Origin: Acholeplasma sp.
GTDB lineage: Bacteria > Bacillota_I > Bacilli_A > Acholeplasmatales > Acholeplasmataceae
DNA: 64,000 bases
NCBI GenBank assembly: GCA_003605085.1
Contig: QZKD01000039.1
Coordinates: 1 to 64,000 of the forward strand
Reading direction: 5' to 3'
This document shows, piece by piece, positions 49,911 through 57,103 of the stretch; the stretch's first letter is position 1; the number at the start of each line of letters is the position of its first letter. The translations under genes and the position numbers were made by a program. The notes below the pieces were generated by a model. It was not told the DNA's origin and searched no databases. It saw only the letters and a list, made by a program, of their open reading frames with translations.

Positions 49911-51920
49911 ATGTTTAAGACCATGAAAAAAGTTTGGCGTTATATCGCCAAATACAAAAAATTATTAGTGATCACTTTAACTGCCATGCTGATTGTCCAA
50001 GGCTTGGGTCTTTTAGCACCGCTCATTGTCAAATCCATCTTAGATGACTACTTAGTAGGCATTGAAAGACCATGGTATGAGACAACTGAACAAGAAGGTA
50101 GCGTCTTATATGAAGGTACATTCTACTCGCAAGAAGCCACTTCAGATTCAGTGCTATCTGTTGTGATCTATGAAGGAAAATATTATGTGAGTTTTGATGA
50201 TGTACCTATGGGTAATAAAGAGTTGAATGGGTCAACACTTACCGTGATCACACAAGAAAAAGACGTGTTCACATATCAGGTCACACAACTTACCAGTGAT
50301 GAAGTGTTAGGTTTTTATCAACCTTTTGTTCGTCCTTTAACCATCTTAATCTTATTATTAACACTGAGATTTTTCTTACAAATCGTGTTCACCTACATCC
50401 AACGTATCTCCACCTCGATGATCAACGTCAATATTGTTAGAGATGCACGAAAAGATGCGGTGCGATCCTTGCAGAAAATGCCGATGACTTATTTTGAATC
50501 AGAACCTGCAGGTAAGATTGCTAACCGAGTGATCAGTGATGTTGGAGGAATGATGAATCTCTTCTCTACCATTATGAATTTACTGGTGAACGCTTCACTT
50601 TCCGTCATTTTTGCCTATATTGGAATGTTTTATCTCGATACAAGACTTGCACTTCTCACTTTTTTAATCTTCCCTTTGGTCTACGTATGGTTAAGATATT
50701 TTACCAAAAAGTTGAATAAGATTGCCGTGAAGGTCAATGAAATGGCATCGATGATTACCGCACAACTCAATGAAATCATCAATGGGATTAACATACTGCA
50801 AATCTTTAATTTCAGAAAACAAACCGAAGATCGATTCAATCAACTATCCTCCGATTTCATGAAAGAGAAGATCTCAGAAAATATTTTACACTTATCCATT
50901 GGTTGGAATATGATTAGACTCATTGGATCCTTGGTTACGGCAGTGATTGTTCTTTATTTCGGACAGGGTTATTTAAATGTCGCGGGATTTGTGGTCACAG
51001 CTGGGATCATCTATGCTTATAATGATTACTTATCACGGCTGATTGAACCCGTTGGAACTCTGTTTAGAGAAATCGGTAATCTTCAGCATTCCATGGTTCG
51101 AACAGAACGCATCTTTAAGATCATCGATGGTGATCAAGAAGATGGAACATATATCGAGATCCCTCGTTTCAAAGGGCATATTGTTTTTGATCATCTTTGG
51201 TTTTCCTATAGTGAAGGCACACCTGTATTAAAAGGAATCAATTTAGAAATTAAACCTGGGCAGTTAGTGGGTCTTGTTGGTCACACGGGTTCGGGTAAAA
51301 GTTCACTGATGAGTCTATTGATGAGATTTTATGATTTAAAACCCCATGATATGGGAAACATCACCATAGATGGTTTAGATATTTCGACTTATAGCAAACG
51401 AAGCTATCGACAACACGTTGGGATTGTCTTACAGGATCCAGCGATGTTTAAAGGAACTGTTGCCGATAATGTTCGGTTTGGTCAACATGTGTCTGATGAA
51501 GACATAGATCGTATTTTAAGAAGTATCGGTGGAAGTCGATTGGTTGATAAACTTGAAAATGGAATTCACACCATGATTACCCGGGCAGGTGGGAACTTAT
51601 CGGTGGGTGAAAAGCAACTCATATCCTTTGCGAGAGCCGTTGTGCATGATCCAGCGATCCTAGTCATGGACGAAGCGACTGCCAATATCGATACAGAAAC
51701 TGAAACCATGCTCCAAGAAGCCTTAGAAAAAGTTAGACAAGGTCGGACCATGGTTGTGATTGCACACCGTTTGTCCACCATTAAAAATGCAGACAAAATC
51801 GTCGTTTTAGAAAATGGGATGAAAGTGGAAGAGGGTAAACATAAAGATTTACTTACCAAAAATGGTGTTTATGCCAATATTTATCGTTCACAAATCAAAC
51901 CAGGAGCGGAAATTAGCTGA
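49911..51920 (+). CDS. ABC exporter half-transporter, BmrD/YheH-like subunit
   Basis: A 669-residue permease-ATPase, longer than its partner because of an insertion of roughly 90 residues after the first membrane helix (about residues 40-140), expected outside the membrane. Walker A is GHTGSGKS, Walker B LVMDEATANID with the catalytic Glu, and the signature is the degenerate LSVGEKQ. The lengths and asymmetric sites match B. subtilis BmrCD (YheI/YheH), a multidrug exporter. It starts three bases after its partner. Substrates unknown. Confidence 0.93.
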   Translation: MFKTMKKVWRYIAKYKKLLVITLTAMLIVQGLGLLAPLIVKSILDDYLVGIERPWYETTEQEGSVLYEGTFYSQEATSDSVLSVVIYEGKYYVSFDDVPMGNKELNGSTLTVITQEKDVFTYQVTQLTSDEVLGFYQPFVRPLTILILLLTLRFFLQIVFTYIQRISTSMINVNIVRDARKDAVRSLQKMPMTYFESEPAGKIANRVISDVGGMMNLFSTIMNLLVNASLSVIFAYIGMFYLDTRLALLTFLIFPLVYVWLRYFTKKLNKIAVKVNEMASMITAQLNEIINGINILQIFNFRKQTEDRFNQLSSDFMKEKISENILHLSIGWNMIRLIGSLVTAVIVLYFGQGYLNVAGFVVTAGIIYAYNDYLSRLIEPVGTLFREIGNLQHSMVRTERIFKIIDGDQEDGTYIEIPRFKGHIVFDHLWFSYSEGTPVLKGINLEIKPGQLVGLVGHTGSGKSSLMSLLMRFYDLKPHDMGNITIDGLDISTYSKRSYRQHVGIVLQDPAMFKGTVADNVRFGQHVSDEDIDRILRSIGGSRLVDKLENGIHTMITRAGGNLSVGEKQLISFARAVVHDPAILVMDEATANIDTETETMLQEALEKVRQGRTMVVIAHRLSTIKNADKIVVLENGMKVEEGKHKDLLTKNGVYANIYRSQIKPGAEIS

Positions 51921-51935
51921 TTTTCGCTTTTTTTT
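51905..51935 (+). terminator. Terminator of the ABC exporter operon
   Basis: AGCGGAAAT/ATTTTCGCT stem spanning the stop codon, followed by a long T run. Confidence 0.7.
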
Positions 51936-52006
51936 ATTTTTTTCCAATAAAATCTCGGGTTCATTCGTTTATAGGGTGTAAAAGAAAGCAAAGGAAGGAA
52001 ATTAAA

Positions 52007-53062
52007 ATGAAAAAATTAGTTATTGGATTATTCTCACTTATCTTGGTAGCGACACTCGCTGCATGTACAGGTTTAAATGGTGACATTGGATTTACACTTA
52101 CATCTGATGAAGATGTTATGTCATTTCAAGCATTATCAACAGCAGAGCTTTTATCGAATGTACAGCCTGCTTCGACCCAATCGATGGATGCATCTGGAGT
52201 AGCTGTATTATCCACAGAAACGGATATGACCATTGATCAAATTCAACCTTATTTGGAATTATTTGAACAACTTTTAACTCAAAACAATGGGTTAACTGTC
52301 GTCAATGAAGTTTCTGATTTACCAGAATATGAAACAAAACAGACATTTACTGTCACTGATATTTTAGGCAATCAAGTCACATATATCATGTATTACAATA
52401 CAATTTCAGAAGTTGAAGAAAATGACGATAGTGATGAAGAAGAAAATGATGTGGACGAAAATGAATATCGTATTGAAGGCATCATGATCTATGGCGAAGT
52501 TACCTATCAGATCGTTGGTGAATACGAAGTTGATGGTGAAGAATCAGAACTTAAGTTTAAGTCCTATATCGATGAACTCAATTATGTAGAATCGAAATAT
52601 GAAGTCGAATCTGAAGAAACAAAATTCGAATTCCAAGTAGTAACCAATGGTATTGTCGTCAATGAAAGTAATATCAAAATCGAAAATGAAGAGGATGAAT
52701 TCAAGATTAAGTTGGAATACATTAGCGGTTCAGACTCTGGTGAATATGAATTTAAACTTGAAGAAGAAGATGGTCAATCCATCCTTAAAATCGAATTTAC
52801 TTCGACAATCAATGGTGTCACCACAAGCGGTGAAGCAAAAGTAAACGTCGTCGTTGATGAACTTACGGGTGAAACTTCTTATGTCATCTCTGTAAAATCA
52901 GGTGATGATGATGAAGAATATGAAAAAGAATATGACCGTGATATCGATGATCGCGATGATGAAGATGACGACGAAGACGAAGATGAAAATGAAAGCGAAG
53001 ACGAAGACGAAGTAGAAACAGAAGAAGAATCTGAAGATAATGTTGAAACAGAACAAGACTAA
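52007..53062 (+). CDS. Acidic-tailed lipoprotein, paralogue of the neighbouring membrane protein's outer domain
   Basis: A 351-residue secreted lipoprotein with lipobox LAAC (C20). The folded part covers about residues 70-295 and ends in an extremely Asp/Glu-rich tail of about 50 residues. Blocks such as IQPYLELFEQLL, DILGNQVTYIMYYN, IDELNYVESKYEVES and VVTNGIVV recur in the same order in the membrane protein encoded at 53668-54873 (IKPYLGMIENLL, DLLGHPITYYFYYN, LDDLNYIESIYKVES, VVNGILES), so the two are paralogues. I recognise no named family. The ECF sigma gene lies between the two. AAGGAAGG precedes the start. Confidence 0.85.
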   Translation: MKKLVIGLFSLILVATLAACTGLNGDIGFTLTSDEDVMSFQALSTAELLSNVQPASTQSMDASGVAVLSTETDMTIDQIQPYLELFEQLLTQNNGLTVVNEVSDLPEYETKQTFTVTDILGNQVTYIMYYNTISEVEENDDSDEEENDVDENEYRIEGIMIYGEVTYQIVGEYEVDGEESELKFKSYIDELNYVESKYEVESEETKFEFQVVTNGIVVNESNIKIENEEDEFKIKLEYISGSDSGEYEFKLEEEDGQSILKIEFTSTINGVTTSGEAKVNVVVDELTGETSYVISVKSGDDDEEYEKEYDRDIDDRDDEDDDEDEDENESEDEDEVETEEESEDNVETEQD

Positions 53063-53089
53063 TCTTTAGAATATAAAAAAAGAAAACTG

Positions 53090-53125
53090 TATAATAACAT
53101 CAGGGGCAAGTCAATCTTGCCTCTG
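53090..53125 (+). promoter_or_regulatory. Promoter -10 and start-site hairpin of the ECF sigma gene
   Basis: TATAAT (53090-53095) places the RNA start near 53102. There, CAGGGGCAAG/CTTGCCTCTG (one G-T pair) forms a 10-bp stem with a five-base loop at 53101-53125. There is no T run, so it is not a terminator; an operator or a 5' mRNA-stabilising hairpin is possible. A strong -35 is not evident, as expected if an alternative sigma factor or activator is used. Confidence 0.5.
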
Positions 53126-53150
53126 AATCTACGATTAAGGAATTGGACCA

Positions 53151-53675
53151 ATGACTTTAGATCACCAGGCGATCAAGCGATTAAAAGCCCATGATAATCC
53201 TACATTTGAAAAGATTTATGATGAGACTAAACGAGGTGTCTATGCGATCGTCTTTTCGGTGACAAAAAGTCATGAAGATACAAACGATCTTTTGCAAGAT
53301 GTCTACATGAAGATGCTCATCAAAATCGATCAATACAAGGTGGGATCAAATTTCCTTAATTGGCTATTACAAATCGCAAAAAATCACGCGATTGATTACT
53401 ACCGAAGAGAAAAGAAAGTCACAAGGGTAGATGAAGATCAGATTCATCATATCCAATCAAATTATGATGAAAATCCTGATGAAAGTGATCAGTTTCAACG
53501 CATGATAGAAGCCTTAGATGAGGACGAAAGAATGATCGTTCTACTCAAAATTGTGGATGACTTAACCCATCAAGAGATTGCAAAAATAACCCAAAAACCC
53601 TTGGGCACAGTTTTATGGATATATCAAAAAGCGATAAACAAGCTAAAAAGATTTGGAGGTGACGTTCATGAATAA
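53151..53675 (+). CDS. ECF-family RNA polymerase sigma factor
   Basis: A 174-residue sigma-70 family protein with regions 2 and 4 only. Region 2 contains DTNDLLQDVYMKML and NWLLQIAKNHAIDYYR near residues 45-85; region 4 contains DERMIVLLKIVDDLTHQEIAKI and PLGTVLWIYQKAINKLKR near residues 125-168. A short acidic linker joins them. It overlaps the next gene by eight bases; that gene encodes a single-pass membrane protein, the standard place for an anti-sigma factor. Target promoters are unknown. Confidence 0.93.
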   Translation: MTLDHQAIKRLKAHDNPTFEKIYDETKRGVYAIVFSVTKSHEDTNDLLQDVYMKMLIKIDQYKVGSNFLNWLLQIAKNHAIDYYRREKKVTRVDEDQIHHIQSNYDENPDESDQFQRMIEALDEDERMIVLLKIVDDLTHQEIAKITQKPLGTVLWIYQKAINKLKRFGGDVHE

Positions 53676-54873
53676 AAAAGAAATTAAAAAGTTAATCTCT
53701 TCTAACATGGATGCTCACATTCCCATGGATGCTCCAAAGATCCATTGGGCAACAGTCGATCAGATGCGTCTAGAAGAACCTACGATAAAAACAGTACGTG
53801 CATGGTCATCTCCTTTTAAATTATCGCTTGGATTATCACTGATGGTTCTCTTTGCACTCGGTTTATTTGCTCTACTATACAATCCAATTGAACCAGAAAT
53901 TCCGCTCGGTGAAGCGCTTTTCTATGAACAAAAAGATGTTTTATCCGTCTCCTTCGTGTCCACTGCAGCACTAATTCCTGAGTATGATCAACAACTTTCT
54001 TCCTCAGGTATTCGTCTGATGGCACTGGATACATCACCGATTGAACGCATTAAACCCTATTTGGGTATGATTGAGAATCTTCTTGCTCAAGATCAAGGTT
54101 TTTCTAGTACGGTACTACCTTCTGATTTAGAAGATTATGATACAAAATTAGAAATTATAACCTATGATTTGCTCGGTCATCCCATCACCTATTATTTTTA
54201 CTATAATGTGGATGCCTATGAAATAGATGATGATGATGAAGAAACATTTGAAATCAGTGGACTGATGATCCTACACAACCTTTCATATCAGATGATAGGA
54301 GAAAAATGGATCGAAGATGGTGAATCAAAGCTAAAAGTCAAAGGCTTCCTCGATGATCTTAACTATATTGAGTCAATTTATAAAGTTGAATCAGATGAGT
54401 CTTCATATGAAGTTAATCGTGTTGTCAATGGTATTCTTGAGTCTTCTTCGATGATCAAAATCGAGTTTGATGAAGCCGATGAAATGAAAATTGAGATTGA
54501 GATAGATTCAATCAATGAGATTTCATCTTATGAATTCAAGTATGAGTTAGAAGATGAACAACCAATCATCAAAGCAGAATATGAGGTTTTTGATCGAATC
54601 AATGATCTTATATATCAAGCTGAATTAAGAATTTCTGTGCAGACTGATCTTTTAACAGGAACGACATCATATTCGATGATTATTAAAGATGAAGACAACG
54701 AAGAATACGAGTATGAATCTGAACGTGATGTCAAAACCGATGATGATGAAGAAGACGATGAAGAAGATCCTGAAGATGAAGAAGATTCAAAAGATGAGGA
54801 TGATCATGAGGATGATGAAGCAGATGAACCAGAGGATGACGACTTAGATGAACCAGAGGATGATGAATCTTAA
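53668..54873 (+). CDS. Putative membrane anti-sigma factor with lipoprotein-like outer domain and acidic tail
   Basis: A 401-residue protein. Residues 1-50 are cytoplasmic and lack the zinc-binding HxxxCxxC motif of ZAS anti-sigma factors. A hydrophobic helix spans about residues 52-71. The outer part (about 75-345) is colinear with the lipoprotein encoded at 52007-53062, and an Asp/Glu-rich tail of about 50 residues closes both. The ATG follows GGAGGTGA by five bases and overlaps the sigma stop. Anti-sigma function is inferred from position and topology; the paralogous lipoprotein may compete for the same ligand or partner. Confidence 0.75.
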   Translation: MNKKEIKKLISSNMDAHIPMDAPKIHWATVDQMRLEEPTIKTVRAWSSPFKLSLGLSLMVLFALGLFALLYNPIEPEIPLGEALFYEQKDVLSVSFVSTAALIPEYDQQLSSSGIRLMALDTSPIERIKPYLGMIENLLAQDQGFSSTVLPSDLEDYDTKLEIITYDLLGHPITYYFYYNVDAYEIDDDDEETFEISGLMILHNLSYQMIGEKWIEDGESKLKVKGFLDDLNYIESIYKVESDESSYEVNRVVNGILESSSMIKIEFDEADEMKIEIEIDSINEISSYEFKYELEDEQPIIKAEYEVFDRINDLIYQAELRISVQTDLLTGTTSYSMIIKDEDNEEYEYESERDVKTDDDEEDDEEDPEDEEDSKDEDDHEDDEADEPEDDDLDEPEDDES

Positions 54874-54885
54874 ATTCATTCAATA

Positions 54886-54921
54886 GACCTAGGATAACGT
54901 GATTTCTTAGGTCTTTTTTTT
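54886..54921 (+). terminator. Terminator of the sigma/anti-sigma operon
   Basis: GACCTA/TAGGTC stem with an extended loop and eight T residues. Confidence 0.7.
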
Positions 54922-54976
54922 ATCTTTATGACCCCTTCATCATGTTACAATAAGAATGTAGAAATGATGTGTAACT

Positions 54977-57103
54977 ATGAAGAAAATAATCTTGCTCCTG
55001 CTTAGTGTAATCAATCTATTTTCATATCGAATAATCCAGACCCATGCTGCTCCATCAGAAGCTTCTTTTCAACCTATCTTTTCCCATGAAGCTGGGTTTT
55101 ATCATGAAGGATTTTCATTACTCATTACCGCAGAAGAAGGAACAACGGTTTACTATACCCTTGATTCATCTGATCCTAATGAGTTAAGTACCCCATATAC
55201 GGATCCAATCTGGATTGAGGAATCATGGATTGAAGCAACCGGCGAAGAAATCATCATTGCTCCAGATGATGAAGGCAATATTCCTGATCCTACATATCCC
55301 ATATCCATGATACGAACGACATCGCTTTATTGGATGTCACCCAAAGAAGATATCTTTCAAGCGACTGTCGTAAAAGCCATCGCAATCGATAATTTCACTG
55401 GCGAAAAAAGTGAGATTATCACGCATACTTATTTTGTTCATCCTCTGATGTCTGAGTTGTACTCATTTCCCATCATTAGTCTCTCAACAGATATAAACCA
55501 TCTTTACAGTTATGAGGAAGGCATCAATATACCAGGTATAAATTATGATCAGAATATTGACGAAAAGGGGATTCAGCAAGCCATCCAAGATCGCTATGGT
55601 TCTTTAACTCATCCTGGGCAAAACCGAACGGGTAACTATTTTCAAACGGGTGATGCATGGGAAAAACCTGTCTTTGTTGAGTATTTCACGACAGATGGTA
55701 ACCGTCCAATTGCTCAACATGCAGGCTTGAGATTGCATGGAGGGTTATCAAGAAAATATACCGTGAAAAGTTACCGACTTTACGCCGATGATCGTTATGA
55801 TGAAGAAGATATGTTTAATTATCCTTTTTTTAACGATAAGAATATGAGTGAATACAAACGAATTATTCTGCGTAATGGGGGTCAAACGTATCAATATACG
55901 TTAATGGGAGATGCACTTGCACAAAGCATCTTAAAACCATTAACCTTAGACATTCAATACAGTAGTCCGATTATTCTTTTTATGAATGGCGAATACTTTG
56001 GTATAAGAAATATCCGTGATCGTTTGGACCAATATTATCTAGCCACCCATTATGATATCAATCCAGATGAAGTCACGATTTTAACAGGTCATGCTTTTCT
56101 TGATGAAGGTTCTCTTTTGGATCAAGCACACTACCAACGGATGTATAGCTTTGCAAGTACCAAAGATTTATCGATTCAGAAGAACTATCAAAAAATGATG
56201 ACATGGATGGATATGGATAATTATATCGATTACATGATTGCAGAACTTTATTTTGGTAATGTCGATTGGCCCCAAAATAATATCTCTTACTGGCGAAAGT
56301 CTGGAGGATATCATCCGGATGCACCTTATGGACATGATGGAAGATGGCGCTGGATGATTCAAGATCTCGATGCTTCCTTTGGTGCATCATGGGGAACAAC
56401 ACAAGCCACACAAAATCCTTTTGATAGACTTTTAGGAGATTCATGGAAAACAGGAAGGCTCCTGATTGAACTTTTAGAAAATGATCAATTTAAAGCTCAA
56501 TTTGTTTATCGTTTGACGGATCTATTATCTTCTGTCTATGATGAAGAGCGCGTGGTTTTAATGGTCGAAGACATGATTGAACTTTATCGTGATGAGATGC
56601 CAGATCATATCGCACGATTTGGATATCCAACTTCAATTGAAACATGGGAATCCTATAGTCAGCGTATGGTTGATTTTGGAAGTGAACGCCCCAGCTATCT
56701 TAAGGATTATCTTGAGACATGGCTCAACTTGGATGAAACACATAATCTTTCATTCAGCTATCAACCTGAGCAAGGAACCCTAAAAATCAATCAACAAACG
56801 GATACAGATGGTTCCTTGGTATTTGAAGCTTATCAGGGCATACCACTTACCATGACAGCTATTCCCAATGAAGGTTTTCATTTTACAGGGTGGTATGTAG
56901 GTGATCTTTTGTTATCGGAGCAGGAAACGATTTATTTCCCCCCAACTGAATCTCTAAGCATTAGAGCTCAATTTGCCATAGGGGATAGACCAGATAACGA
57001 AGATTCTCTACCATATTTAGGATTAATCATCAGTACCTCAATCATCACATTAGGATCGATTTCAATACTTACGATTCTAGTCGTTAAACATAAAAAACAC
57101 TAA
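54977..57103 (+). CDS. Multidomain secreted CotH protein with C-terminal membrane anchor
   Basis: A 708-residue exported protein. Signal peptide to about residue 25; a chitobiase-C-terminal-like Ig domain (TVYYTLDSSDPNELS and the later VKAIAIDN) to about 155; CotH domain from about 160 to 550 with LRLHGGLSRKYTVKSYRL, RIILRNGG and the Mg/ATP block WMIQDLDASFG; an InlB-repeat-like segment (GFHFTGWYVGD) near 640; and a final hydrophobic helix with KHKKH. CotH proteins are secreted protein kinases. A TACAAT lies at 54946-54951; the ribosome binding site is weak. It follows the sigma-factor operon, separated by a terminator. Confidence 0.87.
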   Translation: MKKIILLLLSVINLFSYRIIQTHAAPSEASFQPIFSHEAGFYHEGFSLLITAEEGTTVYYTLDSSDPNELSTPYTDPIWIEESWIEATGEEIIIAPDDEGNIPDPTYPISMIRTTSLYWMSPKEDIFQATVVKAIAIDNFTGEKSEIITHTYFVHPLMSELYSFPIISLSTDINHLYSYEEGINIPGINYDQNIDEKGIQQAIQDRYGSLTHPGQNRTGNYFQTGDAWEKPVFVEYFTTDGNRPIAQHAGLRLHGGLSRKYTVKSYRLYADDRYDEEDMFNYPFFNDKNMSEYKRIILRNGGQTYQYTLMGDALAQSILKPLTLDIQYSSPIILFMNGEYFGIRNIRDRLDQYYLATHYDINPDEVTILTGHAFLDEGSLLDQAHYQRMYSFASTKDLSIQKNYQKMMTWMDMDNYIDYMIAELYFGNVDWPQNNISYWRKSGGYHPDAPYGHDGRWRWMIQDLDASFGASWGTTQATQNPFDRLLGDSWKTGRLLIELLENDQFKAQFVYRLTDLLSSVYDEERVVLMVEDMIELYRDEMPDHIARFGYPTSIETWESYSQRMVDFGSERPSYLKDYLETWLNLDETHNLSFSYQPEQGTLKINQQTDTDGSLVFEAYQGIPLTMTAIPNEGFHFTGWYVGDLLLSEQETIYFPPTESLSIRAQFAIGDRPDNEDSLPYLGLIISTSIITLGSISILTILVVKHKKH

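Follow-up and report, generated by a model that had tools for sequence, protein, structure and literature searches.

In a 64,000-nucleotide stretch of DNA from contig 6 of a 1.72-Mb draft genome of Acholeplasma sp. (the window), we found a unit of three genes encoding a lipoprotein, an ECF sigma factor and a single-pass membrane protein, in which the lipoprotein and the outer part of the membrane protein are copies of one domain. With a probability of roughly 0.5, we read the unit as a switch made of a sensor and a sigma factor, with a detached copy of that sensor as its dedicated output. Most likely, the membrane protein is a non-zinc anti-sigma sensor, and the lipoprotein is a sigma-induced copy of this sensor that captures the same ligand. 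Cells in which the switch was turned on would probably produce their sensor in free copies too. The features of the unit are as follows.

51902..51931, + strand: terminator of the upstream ABC-transporter gene (13-pair stem and T run), left boundary
51944..51973, + strand: ECF-type promoter CCAATAAAA-N13-CGTTTATA before the lipoprotein gene (-35 at 51944-51952, -10 at 51966-51973)
52007..53062, + strand: lipoprotein gene, encoding a signal peptide (LAAC lipobox), the outer domain and an acidic tail (from translation and homologues)
53090..53095, + strand: TATAAT with a TG before it, probably the housekeeping -10 of the sigma-membrane protein transcript (from the sequence)
53100..53126, + strand: hairpin of 11 pairs where the sigma mRNA is predicted to start (dG -19.4 kcal/mol, z -4.1)
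53151..53675, + strand: ECF sigma factor gene with sigma regions 2 and 4 (Pfam and NCBIfam)
53668..54873, + strand: single-pass membrane protein, predicted anti-sigma (from AlphaFold2, paralogy to the lipoprotein and adjacency to sigma in 68 of 68 cases)
54885..54922, + strand: terminator-like stem AGACCTA...TAGGTCT and T run, right boundary (read from the sequence)

Since the three genes are flanked by a terminator at 51902-51931 and a terminator-like stem at 54885-54922, we regard them as a unit of their own. The loop of the right-hand stem is too long for the terminator scan, and this stem was identified by direct reading. The original prediction had the unit at 52007-54873; the genes do lie there, and the unit begins earlier, with the promoter at 51944-51973. 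Next to the triad, at 54977-57103, is the gene of a CotH-kinase domain protein, and a protein of equal length adjoins the triad in genome G011.

The sigma factor has 174 amino acids and matches Sigma70_r2 at residues 23-89 (E 4.5e-14) and r4_2 at residues 113-154 (E 1.2e-10) in Pfam, and sigma70-ECF in NCBIfam (E 1.6e-25; 89.7 bits against a cut-off of 42.9). It contains regions 2 and 4 and lacks region 3, as ECF factors (group 4 of sigma-70) do, and it appears to have its own non-housekeeping bipartite promoter, CCAATAA...YGTWT, before lipoprotein or sigma genes. The factor may already have an ECF group number. A fourth sigma match of the same genome, on contig C40, was rejected as a third ECF paralogue; its weak score and the genes around it, apparently rlmB, secE and nusG, suggest a SigH-like factor.

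The membrane protein has 401 amino acids from the ATG at 53668, and its gene shares 8 bp with the end of the sigma gene, an overlap already described in the original prediction. An alternative TTG start listed at 53653 is unneeded because a good Shine-Dalgarno sequence stands before the ATG. An AlphaFold2 model built with 51 homologues (mean pLDDT 86) places helices 3-17 and 27-35 in the cytoplasm and residues 53-70 in the membrane, followed on the outside by helices 81-111 and 124-143, a 14-strand beta meander at 146-341 and the acidic tail. The modelled layout, with the N terminus inside, one membrane pass, a cytoplasmic segment and a C-terminal outer domain, is that expected of an anti-sigma factor. 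The protein is also encoded directly with its sigma factor: all 68 membrane genes that we examined adjoin a sigma gene, and in most loci the start codon overlaps or abuts the sigma stop. The cytoplasmic segment, which is the only part of the protein available for holding the sigma factor, consists of two short helices and is weakly conserved; in many members it starts with M-K-x-K-[DE]-[IL]-K, and P-x-x-x-x-K-I-[DN] then follows in many. The HxxxCxxC motif of the ZAS family is absent from this segment, as had been claimed. The original prediction had also placed the protein where an anti-sigma factor belongs, and the predicted two-helix segment and the constant adjacency to sigma argue for this placement. 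The membrane protein probably keeps the sigma factor inactive. The same genome encodes a site-2 protease (peptidase M50) homologue. It also encodes a second ECF sigma-membrane protein pair with the same outer domain (G000:C9:22749-24352; L073:5749-7352), which lies downstream of a leuS-like gene, has CCAATAAAA...TTTGTATA before its sigma gene and has no adjacent lipoprotein gene.

The lipoprotein has 351 amino acids, and its LAAC lipobox indicates a type II signal peptide, with Cys20 after LAA and this cysteine invariant in 22 of 22 aligned homologues. The lipoprotein and the membrane protein are colinear, with 106 of 266 residues identical (40%; E 5e-52), which confirms the colinear paralogy of the flanking proteins as first reported. 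The reported coordinates of the triad hold as well. A model of the lipoprotein (22 rows; pLDDT 68) has a strand pattern resembling that of the membrane protein model, and its quality was too low for a structure search.

We then compared the outer domain with known families. No Pfam or NCBIfam family covers the membrane protein, and Pfam searches of 51 members gave only isolated weak matches to other families and found no RsiV-type DUF4163/DUF3298 in the outer domain. Sequence comparison with the PDB gave one weak match at chance level. Foldseek comparison of the outer-domain structure with PDB and viral structures gave no match at E<=0.001, and neither RseB nor LolA was among the best 50 matches listed. 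An RsiV-like or other known outer domain was rejected on these comparisons, and a phage origin was rejected since phage records and viral contigs contained no match.

The search of other genomes proposed with the original prediction was carried out and showed the triad in genomes across the host's class, arranged either as lipoprotein-sigma-membrane protein or as sigma-membrane protein-lipoprotein. A first genome scan with the membrane protein as single query gave no match. A membrane-protein search of 101 genomes (the host's own and relatives) found homologues in 47, and a lipoprotein profile matched in 109 of 395 genomes of the host's class. When 392 genomes of the phylum were sampled, all 61 matches at E<=1e-6 fell inside the host's class, and no triad was seen outside it in this sample. 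Eighty fetched loci were read and annotated by profiles. They comprise 37 loci in the first order (window included), 14 in the second, a handful of variants in which the lipoprotein is duplicated or the third gene unclassified, 12 sigma-membrane protein pairs and 10 lipoproteins with no sigma in view, counts that are not unbiased frequencies because the loci were picked by outer-domain or sigma matches. Some genomes have a sigma-membrane protein pair without a neighbouring lipoprotein, which we count against our preferred reading, together with the sigma-less lipoproteins of family f12. Independent occurrence of the flanking genes had been named as evidence that would speak against the system. 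The membrane gene is never independent among the 68 examined, and the lipoprotein is weakly so, with 10 of about 70 loci sigma-less, at least two of these being contig-end cuts. In family f12 (L207-L211; genomes of 2.3-3.4 Mb), lipoproteins with acidic or basic tails have neither an adjacent sigma gene nor a CCAAT promoter.

The link from the sigma factor to the lipoprotein comes from the promoter. The site at 51944-51973 is the sole match in the window to CCAATAAAA-N13-CGTTTATA with three mismatches allowed. Its class-wide form, CCAATAA-N-YGTWT, was found within 150 bases upstream of 58 of 68 lipoprotein genes, compared with 9 among 480 other genes and none among the 68 membrane genes. In the lipoprotein promoter consensus, CCAA and GT reach 100%, both being fixed by the search pattern, and the consensus extends as TA..GTG, a stretch that the pattern does not fix. 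In G055, TTTCGTATATA stands upstream of the lipoprotein ATG at G055:C1:444521. Loci of the sigma-membrane protein-lipoprotein order carry one site before the sigma gene and one before the lipoprotein gene, and in 18 such two-site loci the -10 elements agreed within a locus at 0.80, versus 0.56 when permuted (p 5e-5, in a test that ignores kinship of the loci). The sites of these loci vary among lineages (ACGTATAT, TTGTTAAT, TTGTATTA, TCGTTAAT) yet agree inside each. The conserved ECF-type promoter strongly supports the proposal, made in the original prediction, that the lipoprotein is a feedback product of the sigma factor. On this comparative evidence, it is very probable that the sigma factor has the lipoprotein gene as its dedicated target.

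The sigma gene appears to have a promoter of another kind as well. In most gaps between lipoprotein and sigma genes, a -10-like element stands at the position equivalent to 53090-53095, and in most triads of the host's family a hairpin directly follows the TATAAT, its position kept and its sequence differing. In several loci of the sigma-membrane protein-lipoprotein order, a TATAAT-like element stands before the sigma gene in addition to a CCAAT site.

The regulon was searched by sequence patterns only. In the host genome, CCAAT-N15-20-CGTTTATA gave two matches, the lipoprotein promoter and C4:11482-11514, the latter (CCAATTTTA, 20-nt spacer) being a poor match whose spacing differs from that of the lipoprotein promoter. 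The looser pattern CCAAYAA-N14-17-CGTWTA gave one extra site, C39:1278, 21 bases upstream of the gene for a 170-residue membrane protein. In G016, in which our search showed no sigma but that of the triad, the gene of a 170-residue membrane protein has before it a site that hardly differs from that of the triad. These results point to a very small regulon in which the lipoprotein is the one constant element. The sigma factor may nevertheless have other outputs, because in some genomes the genes of the 170-residue membrane protein and of S8-like proteases lie behind promoters that resemble it. The 170-residue protein of the host (G000:C39:1278-1839; L141) has no Pfam family and is encoded behind CCAATAAAA...CGTATA; proteins resembling it are encoded behind such sites in G010, G011, G012 and G017. 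In several relatives, secreted proteins are encoded directly behind the same promoter type (L106, L123, L126, L138); most are large, and at least two have a subtilisin-like motif. In G007, a lipoprotein with an RsgI_M anti-sigma central domain (L114:990-1991, on C11; E 1.2e-28) is encoded 26 bases downstream of a CCAATAAAA...CGTATA promoter. Here too, in a domain family unrelated to that of the triad, the outer domain of an anti-sigma factor has become a free lipoprotein.

We also analyzed how the two outer domains evolved. A single old split predicts one clade for the lipoprotein domains and one for the membrane domains. In a class-wide tree of 45 rows, one ancient duplication for the whole class was rejected (p-AU 8.8e-5; lnL 60 lower), and the lipoprotein and membrane domains of Acholeplasmataceae clustered together with support 100/98. 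Within Acholeplasmataceae alone, a single split was not rejected (p-AU 0.054), and the lipoprotein and membrane domains of the same genome were more alike than permuted pairs (identity 0.397 versus 0.374, p 2e-4). Because the single class-wide split is rejected and own-genome pairs are more alike, we conclude that the outer domains have been duplicated or homogenised more than once. Such repeated duplication or homogenisation in turn suggests that the two domains have a common partner. The matched evolution could also reflect direct contact between lipoprotein and membrane protein, or unselected gene conversion. The lipoprotein is the slower-evolving copy, with lipoprotein-lipoprotein identity exceeding membrane-membrane identity in 219 of 231 genome pairs. 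Median net charge is -49 for the lipoproteins and -28.5 for the membrane copies; given this strong acidity of both outer domains, a cationic ligand is a natural guess and no more.

Both proteins of the window end in an acidic tail, as first described, of about 54-61 residues with 69-72% Asp/Glu. Among 68 lipoproteins and 68 membrane proteins, 22 and 17, respectively, have a tail with at least 50% Asp/Glu. The tails are lineage-specific and do not belong to the conserved system, so the functional role originally proposed for them is unsupported, and we rejected them as its functional core. A triad remnant in G051 (L070:5413-5886, on C33), beside which no sigma gene was found, has the start of a lipoprotein fused to an acidic end resembling that of the membrane protein, as if repeats encoding acidic stretches had recombined.

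From these results we propose the following mechanism. The short N-terminal helices of the membrane protein would keep the ECF sigma factor inactive. A ligand or stress signal at the outer domain would release it, perhaps through intramembrane proteolysis, for which the site-2 protease homologue is a candidate. The freed sigma factor would then transcribe the lipoprotein gene from CCAATAAAA...CGTTTATA, a step for which comparative support is strong. The lipoprotein would put many copies of the acidic outer domain on the cell surface, where they could capture the same ligand, so that the ligand is removed, signalling is damped and the loop resets. In loci ordered as in the window, the housekeeping -10 and the 5' hairpin may supply sigma and anti-sigma at a basal level, with positive autoregulation perhaps added by transcripts that run on from the lipoprotein promoter. 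More tentatively, and at clearly less than even odds, the triad is a class-wide homeostat in which the sigma factor's dedicated product is a surface-anchored copy of the anti-sigma sensor, and the homogenised copies track the same moving target.

The lipoprotein could act on the sensor itself rather than on a ligand. Like a brake of the RseB kind, it would bind the outer domain of the membrane protein homotypically, block proteolysis and end the response, with no need for an external ligand. The matched evolution of the outer domains suits domains that touch. However, RseB has not been described as a copy of the RseA domain, no RseB-like fold was among the Foldseek matches listed, and lipoprotein domains as negative as the median of -49 should repel each other unless bridged by cations; we consider such a brake rather unlikely. 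A still less probable order of events is that the lipoprotein came first as a protective effector, for example one that binds cationic peptides or enzymes at the surface of wall-less cells, and that the membrane protein borrowed its domain as a sensor, the feedback being incidental. The greater conservation and acidity of the lipoprotein domain are consistent with this order, as are the clustering of Acholeplasmataceae membrane domains with lipoprotein domains, the sensing and inhibition of cationic lysozyme by RsiV, and the retention of the lipoprotein without sigma in the f12 genomes. The higher conservation fits a sponge too, however, and the effector explanation overlaps the sensor-copy explanation, the main difference being which role was selected.

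Two further explanations leave out the anti-sigma function or any regulation. That the membrane protein is a positive partner of the sigma factor, or an unrelated envelope protein co-transcribed with it, would agree with the lack of both a zinc anti-sigma motif and a Pfam match, but we find it very improbable in view of the 68 of 68 adjacent sigma genes, the overlapping or abutting start codons in most loci, the layout of cytoplasmic helices, membrane segment and outer domain, and the second paralogous pair in the same genome. We give hardly any credence to a regulation-free local tandem duplication around the sigma gene; tandem duplicates are common, but a chance neighbourhood is contradicted by the conserved promoter and by the return of the triad across the class in either gene order.

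Wall-less bacteria are often portrayed as having lost most regulation. The triad would be a class-wide envelope-sensing sigma system in wall-less bacteria and their relatives, unnamed in Pfam and NCBIfam and undescribed in the literature searched, and a simple circuit in which sensor and sponge are made from one domain. Acholeplasma laidlawii is a possible test organism. Genome-wide start sites and heat-stress promoters have been mapped in this species (PMC5138195); ECF, RpoE and CCAAT do not occur in the main text of that paper. We found no description of the triad system in the openly accessible literature.

The triad resembles several known systems in part. Like SigV-RsiV of Bacillus, Enterococcus and C. 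difficile, it combines an ECF sigma factor with a single-pass, non-zinc anti-sigma factor, in the triad a predicted one. RsiV, the sensor of lysozyme, binds and inhibits lysozyme (PMC5014341), and an outer domain that binds a ligand and inhibits that same ligand is the nearest precedent for a sensor-inhibitor. Unlike RsiV, the triad outer domain has no recognisable DUF4163/DUF3298, and a separate lipoprotein copy of the sensor is the putative sigma target. In RpoE-RseA-RseB of E. coli, an ECF sigma factor, a membrane anti-sigma factor and a third exported protein are likewise encoded in one operon (PMC8103513), and RseB sets the precedent that a third protein can act on the anti-sigma factor. 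RseB, however, resides in the periplasm and has not been reported to be a copy of the RseA domain, whereas the triad lipoprotein is predicted to be membrane-anchored and is paralogous to the sensor. In SigE-CseA-CseBC of Streptomyces, the operon of an ECF sigma factor also includes a lipoprotein, CseA, which dampens its system (PMC6767563); Streptomyces SigE, in contrast, has no anti-sigma factor and is under two-component control, the sigE promoter is not among the targets of sigma-E, and CseA has not been described as the copy of a sensor. The SigI-RsgI type comes close in another way, in that the free lipoprotein of G007 carries an RsgI_M central domain under the same promoter type as the triad. 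The RsgI_M family is unrelated to the triad outer domain, and the triad proteins have no RsgI_M match. This parallel case suggests that freeing the outer domain of an anti-sigma factor as a lipoprotein under sigma control may be a design of wider occurrence.
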